NCBI GenBank assembly: GCA_003694385.1
Contig: RFKA01000071.1
Coordinates: forward strand, 1 to 13,037
Length of the DNA: 13,037 nucleotides
Source of the DNA: Candidatus Woesearchaeota archaeon
GTDB taxonomy: Archaea > Nanobdellota > Nanobdellia > Woesearchaeales > UBA525
Direction of reading: 5' to 3'
Shown here: positions 3,360 to 11,345 of the stretch, in pieces
Layout: each line of letters starts with the position of its first letter
Numbering within the stretch: the first letter of the stretch is position 1
The notes under the pieces: model-generated
What the model saw: the letters and a program-made list of their open reading frames with translations, nothing else
Databases searched by the model: none
Told to the model about the DNA's origin: nothing
Translations under genes and position numbers: made by a program

Positions 3360-4562
3360 CTAGGAGCTTTTCAGCTGTTCATAGAGCTTCTTGAGTTGTC
3401 CGCTATGCTCTCGCGCATGCGCGAGGACGCGGGCGAAGGGCTCGCCGCCGAGGACGTCGGGGTTGTCGAGAAGGAACTGCGCATGTACTTTGTTGATTTC
3501 GCTGTTGCCTTTGCGTACTGGGGTGAGGCCATCATAGTGATAGTTCACGAACTGCTCGCCACTCTTCCGGTCAGTTTTGAGCTCCGTCCCCTTGAGGCCG
3601 AGACTGCTTTGTATCTCGAACTCTATCTCCATGAGAAGGTCTCTTGCTTCGTTCTCTTCTCTATCGATGGGGGTGCGGCGGGTGTAGGGAAGAACGGCCT
3701 CGATGTGATGAATCGCTTTTGGGCGCCCGAATTCGTTTAGCCCGACGACGACGTCGAGCTTGTCGCGCAGTCCGCCGTGCTCGGTCGTGAGCTTTGGGCC
3801 AAAGGCCGTATACTTGACGTCGATGCCGAATCCGCCTTCGCGCTCGTTCAGCGCATAGACGATGTGTGCTTTGCCGTGCTCCCCTCGAAGCTTTGCGCTT
3901 GCGCGCCAGGCACCAAAGTCGTCCCGTCGATAGTTCTCCTCGTCGAGGAGCCGTTCGAGGCGTGCGTAGCCGCGTTCCCCTTCGAATTCTTCCTTGTCGA
4001 ACGCAAGGCTTGTTGGCACGCAGAAACCGGCTGCAGTCTCCATAATCTCTTTCTGCAGGTTGAGTGCTTCCCAGTAGACGCGTACCGCTTCGGGGTTCGT
4101 GAGGCGGATTGTGTCGGGAACCACCCAGCCGTTTCTGAGTGTTGTTGTCGGGCCGAGGTACACGCGCGGCATTCCATAACCGTCCTGGATGATGATGCGC
4201 TTCGTCCTTGCCATCTCGCGTTCGAGTTTCTTATACTCGGCGATGCCTTGTCGCTGCCGGAACCGCTCAAGTTCTTGGATGGCTTTCTTTGCCAGGCGTC
4301 TTTGCCGGCTGAACTTATGCTTTGTGGCCTTCGCGACGAGTCGCTGGACTGCTGGCGTGTACGCTCTTGTCAGCGTCCCGTCCGGCATGACGAGCGGGTA
4401 ATCGACGACTGGATTGTCGTCCTGAGCAGTTTTGTAGAGGTGTTCGATGAAGCTCAGGTCCTGCGGCCCCGAGGCATCTATCATGACGGGCTTCTTCTCT
4501 GGATGCTCGCCCCTCATGAACCGCTCCAGCTCCTCGTCCAATGGCTTCCACGTCCTGGTCAT
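3360..4562 (-). CDS. 400-residue protein of unknown function
   Basis: I do not recognise this protein. It is hydrophilic with no signal peptide or membrane segment, so presumably cytoplasmic. Residues 1-70 are mixed. About 70-125 is a basic helical stretch (HKFSRQRRLAKKA, then ERFRQRQG and KKLEREMARTKR), which suggests nucleic-acid contact or a coiled coil. The middle alternates predicted strands and helices (GYGMPRVYLGP; YALNEREGGFGIDVKYTAFG; KLDVVVGLNEFGRPKAIHH). The tail, HAREHSGQLKKLYEQLKSS, is helical. No catalytic motif of a known family stands out. The gene is real: it has a strong TATA box 30 nt before the ATG, a long frame and family-like codon use. It is divergent from the zinc-ribbon gene across a 246-bp gap. 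The longest opposite-strand frame (3777-4607) is a shadow. Confidence 0.85.
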   Translation of the reverse strand: MTRTWKPLDEELERFMRGEHPEKKPVMIDASGPQDLSFIEHLYKTAQDDNPVVDYPLVMPDGTLTRAYTPAVQRLVAKATKHKFSRQRRLAKKAIQELERFRQRQGIAEYKKLEREMARTKRIIIQDGYGMPRVYLGPTTTLRNGWVVPDTIRLTNPEAVRVYWEALNLQKEIMETAAGFCVPTSLAFDKEEFEGERGYARLERLLDEENYRRDDFGAWRASAKLRGEHGKAHIVYALNEREGGFGIDVKYTAFGPKLTTEHGGLRDKLDVVVGLNEFGRPKAIHHIEAVLPYTRRTPIDREENEARDLLMEIEFEIQSSLGLKGTELKTDRKSGEQFVNYHYDGLTPVRKGNSEINKVHAQFLLDNPDVLGGEPFARVLAHAREHSGQLKKLYEQLKSS

Positions 4563-4808: not shown

Positions 4809-5306
4809 ATGCTACTCGAAGGCTCGTGCCCGCATTGCAAAGGGGACTTGCACGGGACTCCCCGAAAGGGCTACTACTGCCCGCGCTGCAATATGCTCTT
4901 CAGGCGGCACACGCTTGCTCTCCGGCACATCAGGCAGGACTTGCGCAAACTCATCGATGAACATTTCGCGAACTTCGAACAGCAGCTTACTGAGACCAAG
5001 GCGGGTATTGATGAATCTGCCAAGGAGGGCTTGCACGACCTGAGTGAACTCCAGGCAGCCGTCAATGACCTTGCGCGGCTCCTTGACAAAGATCTTACTG
5101 AGGACGAGCGGGACTTTGAGGCGTGGAAGGCTTCGCGGGCCACCTCCCCACTCATTGTTAAGCCCCACCGGGTTATCGGGAAGCGTGAAAAACCCAAGAA
5201 AGCCACTGGCCGTGCAGTGCACAAGACGACGATGAAGCAGACGGTGAAGCGCGCCAAGAAACGCGGGTTGACGCACGTGAAGAAGCGTCGTCGATCACGC
5301 CGATAG
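4809..5306 (+). CDS. Zinc-ribbon protein with helical middle and basic tail, unknown function
   Basis: A protein of 165 residues in three parts. Residues 7-27 form a zinc ribbon with two knuckles, CPHC (7-10) and CPRC (24-27), separated by KGDLHGTPRKGYY. Residues 36-108 are a long heptad-rich helix (IRQDLRKLIDEHF, LHDLSELQAAVNDLARLL) typical of a coiled coil or oligomerisation rod. Residues 117-165 are strongly basic, ending KKRRRSRR. The ribbon and tail suggest DNA or RNA binding; the family is not recognised. The start is set by the TATA-like box 29 nt upstream. The stop TAG lies inside the first copy of a 12-bp repeat (5302-5313) that recurs upstream of the next gene. The opposite-strand frames here (4812-5276 and 4874-5380) are shadows. 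Confidence 0.85.
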   Translation: MLLEGSCPHCKGDLHGTPRKGYYCPRCNMLFRRHTLALRHIRQDLRKLIDEHFANFEQQLTETKAGIDESAKEGLHDLSELQAAVNDLARLLDKDLTEDERDFEAWKASRATSPLIVKPHRVIGKREKPKKATGRAVHKTTMKQTVKRAKKRGLTHVKKRRRSRR

Positions 5307-5370
5307 TTAAGCACGCGGACTGGTGGTGAATTGTCGTGATGAATTCTGGTAGTGAATTGATAGTTAAGCA
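5302..5370 (+). repeat. 13-bp phased TGAATT repeats flanked by a 12-bp direct repeat
   Basis: GATAGTTAAGCA occurs at 5302-5313 and at 5359-5370. Between and into the second copy, TGAATT starts at 5327, 5340 and 5353, exactly 13 bp apart. The larger unit TGGTGGTGAATTG (5321-5333) is matched at 12 of 13 positions by TGGTAGTGAATTG (5347-5359), 26 bp away. The array ends 10 bp before the TATA box of the 104-residue gene, the usual place for an operator or activator site. Confidence 0.55.
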
Positions 5371-5379
5371 AACAGAACA

Positions 5380-5387
5380 TTTATATA
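5380..5387 (+). promoter_or_regulatory. TATA box of the 104-residue gene
   Basis: TTTATATA starts 29 nt upstream of the ATG at 5409, giving a leaderless transcript. Confidence 0.75.
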
Positions 5388-5408
5388 CTATTAGTTAGTA
5401 GTAACATT

Positions 5409-5723
5409 ATGGCTTTGTATTTTTCAGGGACGTCGCAGGCCGAATACGACCTCCTGGCGCTTGCCTCGCGCCGAGGCCACGCTGTGGAGAGAACTATCTG
5501 GTGCTATGGTGATGAACAGTACGGGCCCCGGGCTCGTCCGCTCGCTGTGGCCTTTGCCTTCAAACGTGCGAAACAGGACAACTCAACGCCGCTCATCATA
5601 ACTATCCATGATATTGAGGGCTTTCACTGCGAACTGGTCTCGGGGGCACATAGATTGAGAGGGGGGCTCACTCCCGAGAACCATTTCGTTGAACCAGTGA
5701 CTGTGAAGGATTTCTATTGGTAA
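5409..5723 (+). CDS. 104-residue protein of unknown function
   Basis: Not recognised. The protein is soluble and looks alpha/beta: MALYFSGTSQAEYDLLALAS suggests a strand and then a helix, RPLAVAFAFKRA and STPLIITIHDIEG look like strand-helix and strand elements, and the C-terminus FVEPVTVKDFYW looks like a final strand. No catalytic set or zinc ligands are evident (single Cys at 32 and 74). The start is well supported by a strong TATA box 29 nt upstream. The gene is single and followed within 15 bp by the promoter of the tRNA-His region. The phased repeats just upstream suggest that it is regulated. Confidence 0.8.
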   Translation: MALYFSGTSQAEYDLLALASRRGHAVERTIWCYGDEQYGPRARPLAVAFAFKRAKQDNSTPLIITIHDIEGFHCELVSGAHRLRGGLTPENHFVEPVTVKDFYW

Positions 5724-5737
5724 CGCCAGACAAAATG

Positions 5738-5745
5738 TTTATAAA
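5738..5745 (+). promoter_or_regulatory. TATA box upstream of the tRNA-His region
   Basis: TTTATAAA would start transcription near 5767, about 60 nt before the mature tRNA 5' end. A weaker candidate (CATTAAGA, 5794-5801) would give a short leader of about 5 nt, so which one drives the tRNA is open. Confidence 0.6.
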
Positions 5746-5770
5746 CGTCTTCCTGCTTCTGCGGCGCATT

Positions 5771-5800
5771 ATGACTCGAGTTGGTTGCCTTCATCATTAA
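5771..5800 (+). other. Possible nine-codon mini-ORF before tRNA-His
   Basis: The frame ATG...TAA encodes MTRVGCLHH. Its ATG lies 33 nt after the first base of the TATA box at 5738, the same geometry as hisS (TATA 7843, ATG 7876). It ends in two His codons directly before the stop and precedes the His tRNA. This could be chance; translation is not shown. Confidence 0.25.
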
Positions 5801-5822
5801 GAGGTCCGTTCTGAGCTCGAGT
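5774..5822 (+). other. Stem-loop directly upstream of tRNA-His
   Basis: ACTCGAGTT (5774-5782) pairs with AGCTCGAGT (5814-5822) as a 9-bp stem with one G-U pair and a 31-nt loop. It ends 5 nt before G-1 of the tRNA. If transcription begins at 5767, it would form in the pre-tRNA leader. Confidence 0.4.
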
Positions 5823-5827
5823 GCTTT

Positions 5828-5900
5828 GGCTGCGGTAGTCTAACGGTTAGGATGGGAGACTGTGGATCTCCAGACGGGGGTTCGATTCCCCCCCGCGGCC
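5828..5900 (+). tRNA. tRNA-His (anticodon GTG)
   Basis: A full cloverleaf can be drawn. The acceptor is GCTGCGG (5829-5835) against CCGCGGC (5893-5899). The D arm is GTCTAACGGTTAGGAT. The anticodon stem GGAGA/TCTCC encloses CTGTGGA with anticodon GTG. The T arm is GGGGG-TTCGATT-CCCCC. The extra G at 5828 pairs with C73 at 5900; this G-1:C73 pair is the identity element read by HisRS. No CCA is encoded and there is no intron. hisS lies about 2 kb downstream, with the PIN-sigma pair between them. Confidence 0.97.
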
Positions 5901-5904
5901 CTCG

Positions 5905-5920
5905 TTTTTCAGTACTTTTT
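5905..5920 (+). terminator. Oligo-T terminator after tRNA-His
   Basis: Two TTTTT runs (5905-5909 and 5916-5920) follow the tRNA 3' end at once. Archaeal RNA polymerase terminates at such T-rich runs without a hairpin. Confidence 0.5.
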
Positions 5921-6055
5921 CCAATAACTCTCTCCGGCTTTTTCTAAATTCAGTTTTGTTTTTACTTCATCTACATCTCGTTCTACATATGTTGCATCTT
6001 CTGTTATAAGAGACGGAGCTCCTAATGCACAGACAATGCATTTAGTTACCACCAC
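5909..6055 (-). pseudogene. Possible gene remnant, minus strand
   Basis: An open minus-strand frame ends at TGA (5911-5909). Its last 49 codons lie outside the PIN gene and read like a genuine protein end: KCIVCALGAPSLITED, then ATYVERDVDEVKTKLNLEKA and GESYWKKY. The ALGAPSLITED pattern is reminiscent of the C-terminal strand region of PIN-type domains (x-x-GA-x-LIT-x-D), but that is only a resemblance. No ATG lies in this part; the frame offers GTG at 6055 and 6052, too close to the shared A/T box at 6066-6075 for the spacing used elsewhere. Further upstream the frame runs antisense to the PIN gene and is a shadow. The segment is A/T-rich (about 37% G+C), unlike its surroundings. It could be a truncated leftover of an older gene or simply chance. 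Confidence 0.3.
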
Positions 6056-6065
6056 TAACCAGTGA

Positions 6066-6075
6066 CTATATAAAT
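6066..6075 (+). promoter_or_regulatory. TATA box of the PIN-sigma operon
   Basis: CTATATAAAT predicts a transcript start near 6095-6098 and a leader of only 6-9 nt before the ATG at 6104. An earlier in-frame ATG at 6074 lies inside this box and so cannot be in the mRNA. The box is also a good TATA on the minus strand (ATTTATATAG). Confidence 0.65.
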
Positions 6076-6103
6076 GATCTGTGTTTTCTCCACCACAAAC
6101 ACG

Positions 6104-6904
6104 ATGGAAACTATCGATGCGCTCCTGGCCCACCCGCTCATTCTCAGCGACACAACACCCTTTAGCCCACGAAGAAGAAACACTTACCAAGACGTTATCT
6201 ATCCCGCAAAGAACTTTGGGGAGCTCAGCAGAATTGAAGAGGAAATAACGTATGTGCGGACTCATAGGGATTGGTTCAGGCAACCAAACGTTTGCACAAC
6301 AAAACGTGTCGTGCAAGAACACGCGCGCGCATACAGAATGTTCAGAGAGAAACTCAAGAACCTCAACAAACGAGAACGCTCCCGCGCGAGAAGAAAATAT
6401 GGTCCCAGAGCAAAACCGCAACCCACAACTAACAAAACGCTGTTCGAGGATCTCGTATTCGGAATGAGTAGGCTCCTCATAGAAGCAACACACGCAGTCC
6501 TCAAGCCCGCCTTGCCAAGAGAGTACGCGCAACTCGTAAATGCAGTCACCGAGCTCTCGACCCGATGCCCCATCAAAAAAGACCATAGTCGTCGCTATGG
6601 GAGCAAGAGGAAAGCAGCGGACCTCCGCGCTGACGAAGAACTCGTCGGTGCAGCAATATACCTCTCACTCTATGAACACAAGCCCTGCTTGCTCGTGACC
6701 TCAGACTATGATCTGCGGGAACTTCTCAACGCCACTACAACACGCCTGCGGACAAAAGAGTACGCACTCTCAACAGCACCAATCACGCTCTGTATCACAA
6801 ACGGACACGCCATTGAGCACGTCTGGAATTCAGCGGACGAAAGACGCGCTACAGTCTCAGGTGCCCGGCAAACCATTGAAGATATTCTGGGGAACACACA
6901 ATGA
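6104..6904 (+). CDS. PIN-domain protein (predicted ribonuclease) coupled to sigma factor
   Basis: A protein of 266 residues with the acidic layout of a PIN ribonuclease fold: Asp16 in LILSDTTPF after the first strand, Glu72 in TTKRVVQEHARAY, Asp177/Glu178 in LRADEELVGAAIYL, and Asp201/Asp203 in CLLVTSDYDLREL. PIN enzymes use such residues to bind Mg2+/Mn2+ and cut RNA. Between the second and third parts lies a long basic segment (about 81-110: KNLNKRERSRARRKYGPRAK) that is not part of a minimal PIN and may bind RNA or DNA. The protein is about twice the length of a VapC toxin and no antitoxin-like gene precedes it. Its TGA overlaps the sigma ATG (ATGA, 6901-6904), so the two are probably co-translated and work together. 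I assign the PIN fold from motifs only. The start at 6104 is dictated by the TATA box; use of the 6074 ATG would add 10 residues. Function is unknown. Confidence 0.75.
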   Translation: METIDALLAHPLILSDTTPFSPRRRNTYQDVIYPAKNFGELSRIEEEITYVRTHRDWFRQPNVCTTKRVVQEHARAYRMFREKLKNLNKRERSRARRKYGPRAKPQPTTNKTLFEDLVFGMSRLLIEATHAVLKPALPREYAQLVNAVTELSTRCPIKKDHSRRYGSKRKAADLRADEELVGAAIYLSLYEHKPCLLVTSDYDLRELLNATTTRLRTKEYALSTAPITLCITNGHAIEHVWNSADERRATVSGARQTIEDILGNTQ

Positions 6905-7848
6905 GATTCGAACCAATCCCTTCCCTCAAGCAGTACATTAAGGAGATACGCACACAGAGCAACGTTGCCATCACAAAAGACGAAACCATTGGCATTGCTC
7001 GAGCACGTAAGGCCGCACTTGCCGTCGCCGAGAGTGCTTATGCACGTATGCACTCGCGTTTCTCGCAGAATCCAACAAACGCAGAAGCAATCTATGATCG
7101 CGCCCTACGCCTCGCCGACCAGCGGAGGAACGACCTCGTCGCAACAGCACTCCCCTTTGTTGTCGGCTACGTCACGAGTAGATACGCATCTAGGAAAGGC
7201 CGTCGGGGACTTGGTATTGAAGACCTCATCCAAGAAGGGAACATCGGCCTCATCAGCGCTGCAGAGCGGTTTAATCCAGAGTACCAGGCGACATTCCTCA
7301 CCTACGCAATCTGGTGGGTGCGCAGACATATCAACAAAGCACTGGCTGACGCAGCCTATCCATATCGAACACCAACATTTATCCAGTTGCGAAAACGCAA
7401 GGCACTCAAAGCATACCGTGCTGCCAGGGAAGCCGGCGACAAAACAGCAATGGAACAGGCTGAGCAAAAACTCCAAGAACCAATTTTTGGAACTGGGACG
7501 CCGCTCGCCAACGCTGGAGCAGACCCAATCGACGCTCTGGTAGCTATTCATGAAGATTTTTGGCAAAAACTATCTGAGGAAGACCCCTTTGAAGAGCGGA
7601 TTGCTCACGCCCTCGATTGTGACACCTTGCGGAACATAGTAGCGAAAAATGTTCCCCTGAGCGAGAACGAGCGCCAAATAATCTTTAAACGCTTCGGCCT
7701 CGGAGAAGAAACACCCATGACACTCAAAGAGATCGGCATCGAGTTTAGCCTCAGCAGAGAGCGCATACGCCAGCTGGAAGCTAGAGCCCTCAAGAAGCTC
7801 AAAACATATCTCACCAACAATCACCCTGACTTCCGCCGGAGATTTTAA
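6901..7848 (+). CDS. Bacterial-type RNA polymerase sigma-70 family protein
   Basis: A full-length sigma-70-like protein of 315 residues. A region 1.2-like start is at 3-36 (IPSLKQYIKEIR, then ITKDETIGIARA). Region 2 spans about 76-150, with DLIQEGNIGLISAAERF (108-124) and TFLTYAIWWVRRHINKALAD (131-150), including the Trp dyad W138-W139 that in bacteria wedges open the -10 element. A short region 3.0-like helix follows (about 152-175), then a divergent linker (176-250) with no clear region 3. Region 4 is at 253-302: LSENERQIIFKRFGL, TLKEIGIEFSLS and the recognition helix RERIRQLEARALKKLK. In bacteria this binds core polymerase and the promoter. Archaeal polymerase uses TBP/TFB instead, so its partner here is unclear; it might bind core polymerase, an element-encoded polymerase, or act as a DNA-binding regulator. 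The frame is intact and the domains complete, so it is probably under selection. It shares an ATGA overlap with the PIN gene. Confidence 0.93.
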   Translation: MRFEPIPSLKQYIKEIRTQSNVAITKDETIGIARARKAALAVAESAYARMHSRFSQNPTNAEAIYDRALRLADQRRNDLVATALPFVVGYVTSRYASRKGRRGLGIEDLIQEGNIGLISAAERFNPEYQATFLTYAIWWVRRHINKALADAAYPYRTPTFIQLRKRKALKAYRAAREAGDKTAMEQAEQKLQEPIFGTGTPLANAGADPIDALVAIHEDFWQKLSEEDPFEERIAHALDCDTLRNIVAKNVPLSENERQIIFKRFGLGEETPMTLKEIGIEFSLSRERIRQLEARALKKLKTYLTNNHPDFRRRF

Positions 7849-7850
7849 AA
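7843..7850 (+). promoter_or_regulatory. TATA box of hisS, overlapping the sigma stop codon
   Basis: TTTTAAAA contains the sigma gene's TAA (7846-7848). It predicts a start near 7872 and a leader of about 4 nt before the hisS ATG at 7876. hisS therefore has its own promoter and does not depend only on the PIN-sigma transcript. Confidence 0.65.
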
Positions 7851-7875
7851 GCGTTCACGTATAACTTCTCCACGC

Positions 7876-9138
7876 ATGAAACTCCAGCTGCCCAAAGGGA
7901 CAAGGGACTTTGCTCCGCGCGAGAAGCTCGCACGCGACAAAATAGTTGCTCGACTCACTTGCATCTTCCAGAGTTACGGCTTCATGCCGCTCGAGACACC
8001 GTCCTTTGAGCGGTGGGAAGTCCTCAGCGCGAAATACGCGGGGGGCGCGGAGATACTCAACGAGACCTTCCGCTTCACAGACCAAGGTGGCCGAGAGCTT
8101 GCACTCCGCTATGATCTCACCGTGCCACTCGCCCGCTACGTCGCGATGAACCCCCAGCTCAAGATGCCGTTCAAACGCTACGCCATCGGCAAGGTATTCC
8201 GTGACGGGCCAATCAAGCTTGGCCGTTACCGAGAGTTCTACCAGTGCGACGTCGACACGATTGGCGCCGCGAGCATGCTCGCCGATGCAGAATGCATCCG
8301 CCTCGGCAACGCGGTATTCAATGAGCTCGGCATCAAGGCGGTGTACAGCGTGAACAACCGGAAAGTGCTTGAGGCGCTTCTCGCGAAGGGAGGCGTGCCG
8401 AAGGAAAAGCTCATCGACGCGATGCTCACGCTTGACAAGCTGGAGAAAGTCGGCCTCGATAACGTGCAGAAAGAACTGGCCGAGAAGGGCATCCCTGAAT
8501 CTTCCGTCACGTTCGTCGTCGCCTTGCGTGAGAAGAGTAACGAGGAAAAGCTTGAGGCGATAAAGCAGGAGCTGGGGGAAGAGGCAATCAAGGAGCTCAC
8601 AGAACTCTTCTCCTATCTTGAAGGCGTACCTATTGATTTCAACCCTGCCCTCTCGCGCGGACTCGCCTACTACACGAGCACCGTCTTCGAAGCCTTCGCA
8701 CAGAACAGCAAGGTCACGAGCAGCCTCTCGGGCGGCGGCCGCTATGACAACATGATTGGTGGCCTCGTCGGGCGCGGCGACATCCCCGCAGTGGGTGTCA
8801 GCTTTGGTCTCGAGCCCATCCTCGACGTGCTCAAAGAGCAGGGCCTCGAAGAAGCGGGCGTCGTGCAACTCTACGTTGTTCCTATCAGGACGATGAAGGA
8901 GAGCGCTGGCATAGCTGAGCAACTCCGCGCGGCAGGCATCAATGTCGCCCTCGACCTCAAAGGACGCAGCATCTCGAAGAACCTTGAGTATGCGAACAGC
9001 GAGGGCATCCCCTTCGTCGTCATCGTTGGCCCGAAAGAACTCGAAGCGGGCACGGTGAAACTGCGGGACATGAAAGCGGGCACTGAAGCAGAGCTCTCCG
9101 TCGAGGAAGTCGCTCAGCGCGTCAAGGCCGCGCGGTAG
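7876..9138 (+). CDS. hisS: Histidyl-tRNA synthetase
   Basis: A class II synthetase charging tRNA-His; 420 residues, the usual length. The N-terminus has KGTRDFAP at 7-14. ALRYDLTVPLARYVA is at 76-90. Motif 2, FRDGPIKLGRYREFYQCDVD, spans 108-127. The histidine-binding HisA motif RGLAYYT is at 261-267, then GGGRYD (286-291) and motif 3, PAVGVSFGLEPI (304-315). Residues 328-420 are the anticodon-binding domain (VQLYVVPI, then LRAAGINVALDLKGRSISKNL). All expected signature segments are present. It lies 27 bp after the sigma gene on the same strand, with its own TATA box. The cognate tRNA-His is about 2 kb upstream, which hints that the tRNA and hisS were once closer neighbours and the PIN-sigma pair lies between them; that is inference. 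Confidence 0.97.
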   Translation: MKLQLPKGTRDFAPREKLARDKIVARLTCIFQSYGFMPLETPSFERWEVLSAKYAGGAEILNETFRFTDQGGRELALRYDLTVPLARYVAMNPQLKMPFKRYAIGKVFRDGPIKLGRYREFYQCDVDTIGAASMLADAECIRLGNAVFNELGIKAVYSVNNRKVLEALLAKGGVPKEKLIDAMLTLDKLEKVGLDNVQKELAEKGIPESSVTFVVALREKSNEEKLEAIKQELGEEAIKELTELFSYLEGVPIDFNPALSRGLAYYTSTVFEAFAQNSKVTSSLSGGGRYDNMIGGLVGRGDIPAVGVSFGLEPILDVLKEQGLEEAGVVQLYVVPIRTMKESAGIAEQLRAAGINVALDLKGRSISKNLEYANSEGIPFVVIVGPKELEAGTVKLRDMKAGTEAELSVEEVAQRVKAAR

Positions 9139-10535: not shown

Positions 10536-11345
10536 GTGTTCACGCACAATTTTTCACCGACAATCTTCACGCTTGGGCCCTTCGCGCTCCGCTGGTACAG
10601 CCTCGTGTGGGTCACGGGCTTCCTCACCGCGTACTACCTCTTGCTGCGCGTGGCGCGCACCCGCCGCATCAAAGGCCTGACAGCGGACACCGTCGATGGC
10701 TTCGTCTCGTGGCTCGTCATCGGCACAGTGATCGGGGCACGCACGTTCTATGCACTCTTCTATAACCCTACTTACTTCCTCGCACAACCCTGGAAGTTTT
10801 TCTTCGTCTGGGAAGGAGGGCTGAGCTTTCATGGGGGATTCCTCGGCGCCTTTATCGCCGCATGGTGGTACACGAAGCGGGCGAAGCTGGACTTCTGGAA
10901 GCTCGCCGACTTCCTCGTTATTCCACTGGCTTTCTTCCTCTGCCTCGGCCGCATAGCCAACTTCATTAATGCAGAACTCGTCGGCACAGTCACGGATGTC
11001 GCCTGGTGCGTCACCTACCCCAACCAGCCATGGATCGAGGGCTGCCGGCACCCAAGCCAATTCTACGAGGCAGGAAAGAACCTCATCATATTTGCTGTTC
11101 TTCTTCCTTTGTGGTCAAAGAAGCGATACGCGAAGCTCAAGGAGGGAACACTCTTCTGGCTCTTCGTCACGCTCTACGGCCTCGGACGCTTCATCACGAA
11201 TTTCTGGCGCGCACCAGACCTCTCAGGAGCATCATGGGCGACAACAACACTGCTCGGCCTCACGCTCGGCCAATGGCTGAGCCTCATCATGGTGGTGCTC
11301 GGGGCAATAATGCTCACACGACTCTTCCAGCAAGATCCAGCATGA
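10536..11345 (+). CDS. lgt: Prolipoprotein diacylglyceryl transferase
   Basis: Lgt is a membrane enzyme that attaches a diacylglyceryl group to the lipobox Cys of lipoprotein precursors. The 269 residues form about seven membrane segments. Family signatures present: GLSFHGGFLGA (95-105, His99), GRIANFINAELVG (138-150, matching Arg143, Asn146, Glu151 and Gly154 of the E. coli enzyme by spacing), RHPSQFYEA (171-179) and YGLGRFITNFWRAPD (214-228). In this last motif the usual R-x3-E-x2-R reads R218-x3-N222-x2-R225, so the conserved Glu is Asn. The start is GTG, set by the TATA box 30 nt upstream. Lgt is typical of bacteria and absent from most archaea, so transfer is likely. Its TGA overlaps the ATG of the next gene. 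Confidence 0.93.
   Translation: MFTHNFSPTIFTLGPFALRWYSLVWVTGFLTAYYLLLRVARTRRIKGLTADTVDGFVSWLVIGTVIGARTFYALFYNPTYFLAQPWKFFFVWEGGLSFHGGFLGAFIAAWWYTKRAKLDFWKLADFLVIPLAFFLCLGRIANFINAELVGTVTDVAWCVTYPNQPWIEGCRHPSQFYEAGKNLIIFAVLLPLWSKKRYAKLKEGTLFWLFVTLYGLGRFITNFWRAPDLSGASWATTTLLGLTLGQWLSLIMVVLGAIMLTRLFQQDPA

Follow-up and report, generated by a model that had tools for sequence, protein, structure and literature searches.

A bacterial-type sigma-70 gene behind a PIN-like gene in a Woesearchaeota archaeon: a probable two-gene insertion at tRNA-His/hisS rather than a conserved system

Introduction

On one contig (RFKA01000071.1) of a Woesearchaeota-order genome, a gene for a candidate PIN ribonuclease is followed by an overlapping gene for a sigma-70 family protein, which raises the question of whether the two genes form a dedicated system or are neighbors for some other reason. 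Sigma-like proteins are said to have been noticed by Rinke and colleagues in 2013 in some DPANN single-cell genomes. A later study describes sigma-70 proteins in DPANN archaea that are prevalent in Woesearchaeota, rules out mis-binning as their source, reports that an anti-sigma factor was not found, and calls the control mechanism unclear if these proteins regulate transcription (Castelle et al. 2021, PMC8204110). Because of that report, a sigma protein in such a genome is not new. Among the literature matches listed, no title or abstract opening mentions a PIN-sigma pair. Below, the window denotes the whole analyzed stretch of 13,037 nucleotides.

Organization of the locus

The features of the locus are as follows.

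5829..5901, plus strand: tRNA-His(GTG), bordering the insertion on the left (ARAGORN; Rfam tRNA, 62 bits)
5912..7842, no strand: inserted islet, approximate, ~1.9 kb, from the T-run after tRNA-His to the hisS TATA-like box (borders by eye)
6067..6074, plus strand: TATATAAA, TATA box of the PIN-sigma pair (exact match)
6104..6904, plus strand: PIN-like nuclease ORF, 266 aa (the mechanical ORF opens at 6074)
6901..6904, plus strand: ATGA, the PIN stop codon overlapping the sigma start codon (from the sequence)
6901..7848, plus strand: sigma-70 family protein, 315 aa (Pfam and PDB matches, comparison with E. coli sigma-70)
7843..7850, plus strand: TTTTAAAA, likely hisS TATA box over the sigma stop codon and right border of the islet (read from the sequence)
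7876..9138, plus strand: hisS, histidyl-tRNA synthetase, right flank (TIGR00442, 366 bits)

The preliminary description had noted an ATGA overlap between the two ORFs and a single TATA box with a very short leader, and both observations were confirmed. The box TATATAAA, with a chance expectation of 0.01 per window, is located 30 nt before ATG 6104, which is preferred as the PIN start codon because the alternative start at 6074 overlaps the box. The search for bacterial promoters in the region 5700-8000 found one, as against 1.4 expected. A 16-nt inverted repeat (94%; 5372-5387 and 6067-6082) spans two TATA-like boxes, one located 5' of a 104-aa ORF and the other 5' of the PIN-like gene.

The host genome (0.89 Mb in 130 contigs, 87% complete) encodes TBP, and its rpoB is split into two ORFs, a configuration that we take to be an archaeal trait. 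The possibility of a chimeric or bacterial contig was rejected, since both flanks keep their gene order in the congener G002, with 40–74% protein identity, and TBP is present in the host genome; the archaeal assignment proposed earlier is thus sound. Elsewhere in the window, the gene at 10536-11345 encodes Lgt (prolipoprotein diacylglyceryl transferase; TIGR00544, 200 bits), a bacterial lipoprotein enzyme that also occurs in the congeners G001 and G002 and in the family member G007. The ORFs at 3360-4562 (400 aa) and 5409-5723 (104 aa) belong to no Pfam or PHROG family and were unmatched in the ten hisS loci read.

Insertion between tRNA-His and hisS

In the congener G002, tRNA-His and hisS are separated by 40 nt and the islet is absent, with ATTAAAAG preceding hisS as the counterpart of TTTTAAAA in the window. 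The two genomes share the gene order IleRS, 165-aa gene, tRNA-His, hisS, Trx and Lgt, and the HisS protein of the window is 62–66% identical to its counterparts in four congeners. Neither the PIN-like gene nor the sigma gene was found in these four congeners or in four further members of the family (73–95% complete). The empty site in G002 and the failure to find either gene in eight relatives therefore identify the pair as an inserted islet, a call that takes gain as likelier than repeated loss. The "captured" origin suggested in the preliminary description holds to this extent: the insertion was seen in none of the eight relatives searched within the genus and the family.

In the genomes G003 and G004, the tRNA-His/hisS gaps are about 190 and 300 nt long and contain a GC-rich element (L123 about 7150-7640; L124 about 6840-7220). 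The ends of this element look inverted by eye (GTTCAGCATC ... GATGCTGAAC in L123), a hint that the gap is open to further insertions as well. The corresponding gap in G001 (L122 6735-9074) is occupied by a second tRNA-His, which is divergent, and by what reads by eye as a probable histidine ammonia-lyase gene.

Both genes of the pair have a GC3 of 0.54, as against 0.60–0.78 for the 11 other genes of the window, and their codon usage deviates from that of the host set (z of -4.2 for PIN and -6.3 for sigma); the fit of the two to each other is not clearly closer than their fit to the host. The genes for the 165-aa, 104-aa and 274-aa proteins give z values of -3.9 to -4.8, and since these three nearby genes are atypical as well, composition alone does not prove a foreign origin. 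The first 190 bases of the islet are AT-rich (GC of 0.37 at 5902-6103) and carry no assigned gene; no Rfam family was found in 5902-6070, where the folding z values are -0.5 and +0.45. In the region 5300-8300, the repeats listed are all short and imperfect, and none is conspicuous as an att-like site or a target duplication; the islet has no further ORF of integrase size. Beside tRNA-His, the minus strand of 5912-6085 carries a coding-looking piece of 58 aa, perhaps the tail of a gene since lost; its matches, in 28 other genomes at an E value of 1 or lower, are weak (best 0.005).

The sigma-70 protein

The Pfam search identified region 2 (Sigma70_r2, residues 94-150, E of 6.4e-14, 51.9 bits vs a cut-off of 24) and region 4 (Sigma70_r4, residues 253-301, 6.6e-15, 54.8 bits vs 24.1), and gave no match for regions 1.2 and 3. 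Bacterial SigA, RpoD and RpoS structures in the PDB match the protein to 1e-28; some of the SigA alignments begin at residue 8-9, suggesting region 1.2, and the alignment with E. coli sigma-70 pairs that region with no residue of the window protein. The protein had been called a complete sigma, which is upheld for regions 2 and 4, but not for region 3 by Pfam, nor for region 1.2 outside some SigA alignments.

The protein is identical to E. coli sigma-70 at D403, Q406, E407 and N409, which we take to be clamp docking positions, at F419, F427, T429, Y430, W433 and W434, presumably the melting positions, and at R584, E585, R588 and Q589, the assumed -35 reading positions. R451 and R586 are also retained, as against changes at Q437R, T440N, R441, H455F and E458L. 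From these retained and changed residues, we predict that the protein reads a -35 element and that its specificity for the -12 and extended -10 positions is altered, and with its clamp, melting and -35 residues kept, the protein may contact polymerase and initiate transcription. On the polymerase side, a segment of the host Rpo1 that we take to hold the clamp coiled coil aligns with E. coli beta'. The Rpo2 segment at what is presumably the flap tip position is 7 residues shorter than in E. coli and dissimilar, so the bacterial mode of docking may not apply to region 4.

Relatives of this sigma are remote, with identities of at most 39% among the 119 other proteins listed (7997 candidates scored). 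A search of genome contigs for a close relative found three bacterial loci, and one distant sigma (27%) was found in viral contigs by a scan that reaches close relatives only. The phage sigma family phrog_351 matches the protein at 1.1e-39. Within the order, sigma proteins were found in 55 of 193 genomes, its own included, where they are scattered among genomes and many are long-branched. The window protein has no supported home in a tree built from 76 sigma rows, where it sits on an end branch of 2.06 changes per column and the bootstrap had yet to settle. The order contributes 53 rows to this tree, including the window; they need seven changes, at least four of them forced by supported branches, and so do not form one clade in that tree. 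The ORF lengths of the order's sigmas range from 264 to 1741 aa (e.g., L099 3316-8541), and two sigmas are in tandem at six of 46 loci (L063, L066, L072, L081, L082 and L094).

Two described groups of proteins can be compared with the window sigma. The MzaA sigma of the MZA anti-phage system (NCBIfam, PADLOC) shares the sigma-70 domain match, and the sigma was the only one of three window proteins scanned to be matched by PADLOC; full-length MzaA was rejected, since the score was 137 bits vs a cut-off of 800 and the sigma part alone matches. The window protein resembles the DPANN sigma-70 proteins of PMC8204110 (fam00359) in being a sigma-70 of bacterial type from a TBP-encoding DPANN genome, on a contig that, by synteny, is not mis-binned. 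It differs from DPANN sigma-70 proteins in being 36% identical to its best-scoring kin within the order, in the lack of Pfam regions 1.2 and 3, and in its place behind a nuclease gene, and may or may not belong to fam00359 itself.

The PIN-like protein family

The product of the first gene has no match in Pfam (even at E 1), NCBIfam, PHROGs or PADLOC, and thus no phage or defense family in the latter two. It belongs to a family that is undescribed, with nine relatives in 193 genomes, its own included; an alignment search of the order, many of its matches being partial, extends the family to 44 of 352 genomes, again counting its own, and one database member is annotated as a hypothetical protein of a Woesearchaeota archaeon. 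Among 10 family sequences, D16, E72, K158, D177, E178, D201 and D203 are invariant. In a set of 41 sequences (the 43 family ORFs minus L188 and L191), D16 is invariant and E72, D177 and D201 are conserved in at least 90%, so the PIN-type acidic order D, E, D, D is present family-wide.

At E 0.1, the 41 members matched 23 Pfam families, the best single match being the unrelated WASH_WAHD (0.0006). These 23 include PIN_6, NYN, 5_3_exonuc_N, PIN, PIN_4 and NYN_YacP (best E 0.0099), which we group as six PIN-like nuclease families. The HHalign score of the family against 11 VapC-type proteins of the order was 22.8, compared to a maximum of 12.2 in 60 column-shuffled controls, 12.8 for a sigma profile, 11.8 for HisRS, and 8.6 and 9.9 for reversed profiles; the probability is just 5.6%, the global mode gives -0.3, and the confident part is confined to 28 columns round the last acids. 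Against larger PIN-bearing proteins the score was 15.9. AlphaFold2, run with few homologues, gave pLDDT values of 40 for the window protein and 44 for its homologue P0122, and a Foldseek search with the low-confidence P0122 model returned no match at E 0.001, a result that is uninformative at pLDDT 44. The residue pattern and profile comparisons make it quite likely that the first ORF is PIN-like, in which case it is probably an RNase. The earlier designation as a PIN ribonuclease is thus probably right: the acidic residues are family-wide, and the PIN fold has weak profile support and a low-confidence structure prediction.

Like the VapC-type PIN proteins (PF01850), the window protein has the conserved order of acids and a weak profile similarity to them. 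It is longer (266 aa vs 100–158 aa in the 11 VapC-type proteins compared), has a longer stretch from the second to the third acid, and lacks both a Pfam match and a VapB-like partner. In VapBC systems, a small DNA-binding antitoxin gene adjoins the PIN gene, usually upstream. The stretch from tRNA-His to the PIN-like gene holds just plus-strand ORFs of 21-55 aa, of which the 55-aa ORF overlaps the PIN gene, and the downstream partner is a 315-aa sigma; a VapBC toxin-antitoxin system was rejected, as no antitoxin-type gene is adjacent. No relative of the PIN-like protein was found in viral contigs by a scan that reaches close relatives only.

Linkage of the PIN-like and sigma genes in related genomes

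On the PIN side, no sigma adjoins any of the 42 other family ORFs (42 loci, flanks up to about 8 kb as limited by the contigs, 40 ORFs with a readable downstream ORF), and none was found in six frames of the 43 other PIN-family loci fetched. This sampling left out G157, which has a degenerate match, and the L194 locus of G199 gave no family ORF. The linkage is thus present in one of 43 PIN-family ORFs, namely the window itself. On the sigma side, a PIN-like gene adjoins none of the 53 other sigma ORFs of the order, sampled from 46 loci in 37 of the 54 other sigma-bearing genomes with weaker matches left out; the L075 sigma was missed by ORF calling, yet its locus was scanned. With a 10-sequence PIN profile, nothing was found in the six frames of 47 sigma loci, and a 41-sequence profile found one ORF, L045 726-1580 in genome G089. 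This ORF (284 aa, E 0.0005, 17.6 bits) matches the second half of the profile only, has no Pfam match and is separated from the large G089 sigma gene by 5.2 kb with eight called genes between; it may be a distant relative of the PIN family, and we do not count it as a pair.

At the genome level, sigma occurs in four of 18 PIN-bearing genomes vs 50 of 174 others among 192 relatives (Fisher p of 0.78, assuming that the PIN alignment search covered all 192), so co-occurrence is at chance. We also clustered the 412 neighbors of 70 aa or more encoded within five genes of 54 sigma ORFs (47 loci, window included). A conserved partner of the order's sigmas was rejected, as no neighbor family occurs in more than four loci, and the three families that reach four look housekeeping by eye. 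For 90 sigma-adjacent proteins (window excluded, none longer than 1000 aa), the Pfam families listed, 25 of 140, each match two of the proteins at most, a share that leaves room for a single PIN neighbor of a sigma.

Since the two genes are not side by side in the relatives examined, PIN-sigma does not look like a conserved system. The preliminary description had offered a dedicated coupled system as one possibility and had named sigma homologues that never adjoin the PIN gene as its refutation; as far as sampled, this is what the related genomes show, and functional coupling is neither shown nor conserved.

Discussion

On balance, we consider it more likely than not that the pair is a laterally acquired two-gene cargo, which landed between tRNA-His and hisS in a single genome of the Woesearchaeota order. 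The sigma would be one of the order's patchily distributed, bacterial-type sigma-70 proteins, and the first gene would be a stray member of the order's PIN-like RNase family, elsewhere without an adjacent sigma. Transcription by way of TBP and TFB at the TATA box would yield a single mRNA with a short leader, on which translation of the two proteins would be coupled through the ATGA overlap. Region 2.2 of the sigma may dock on the clamp coiled coil of the archaeal polymerase, the region 2.3 aromatics may open DNA and region 4.2 may read a -35-like element, so that transcription would begin at a small number of element-type promoters. Independently of this, the PIN-like protein would cut RNA by means of its metal-binding acidic residues. 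The sequence data show the gene structure, the overlap, a site that is filled here and empty in a congener, the retained residues and the lack of conserved linkage, whereas expression, the two activities, any contact with polymerase and the route of arrival are inferred. Several points count against the cargo reading. Atypical codon use is not confined to the pair, no att-like repeat, target duplication or integrase-sized ORF stands out, and the sigma is changed at Q437, T440, R441, H455 and E458. The overlap may also mark a functional pair with relatives outside the present sampling, the listed sigma relatives being at most 39% identical, and the flap-tip segment of Rpo2 is hard to reconcile with classic docking of region 4.

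The ATGA overlap and the shared TATA box, together with the low GC3 of both genes and the failure to find them in the eight nearest relatives, would suit a dedicated regulatory or toxin-like module that moves as a unit, with PIN as effector RNase and sigma as selector, tether or antidote. We regard such a module as unlikely, given that linkage was seen in none of the 42 other PIN-family and 53 other sigma ORFs, that co-occurrence is at chance, that the space between tRNA-His and the PIN gene offers only short plus-strand ORFs, the longest overlapping PIN, and that the PIN protein matches no phage or defense family. A remnant of archaeal virus or plasmid cargo, in which sigma redirects polymerase to element promoters and RNA of the host or of rivals is shut down by the PIN RNase, is improbable as well: the position beside a tRNA gene, the phrog_351 match and the scattered, often long-branched sigmas of the order speak for it, but the close-relative scans of viral contigs yielded no PIN relative and one distant sigma, the islet has no other gene, and phrog_351 may fit ordinary cellular sigma factors equally.

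Very unlikely, in our view, is a chance juxtaposition of two functionally unrelated genes, one or both possibly decaying. It would account for the lack of conservation, the long end branch of the sigma and its changed specificity residues (Q437R, T440N, H455F and E458L). Against it, neither reading frame is broken, the acids of the PIN-like protein and the core residues of the sigma are retained, and genes that share a promoter and overlap by 4 nt would, in our judgement, be an unusual product of chance. We give equally little credence to a mobile PIN-sigma operon on an unsampled element inserting beside tRNA-His, in which sigma would commandeer the archaeal polymerase via the universal clamp coiled coil and the co-translated PIN RNase would remove competing host RNA, a two-protein capture of gene expression.

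On present evidence, PIN-sigma coupling should not count as a system. The locus also brings out an undescribed PIN-like family from the same order. Its sigma is short and intact, retains the docking and melting positions and comes from a genome that encodes TBP as well, which makes the locus suited to a direct test of whether an archaeal polymerase can be used by a sigma factor of bacterial type.
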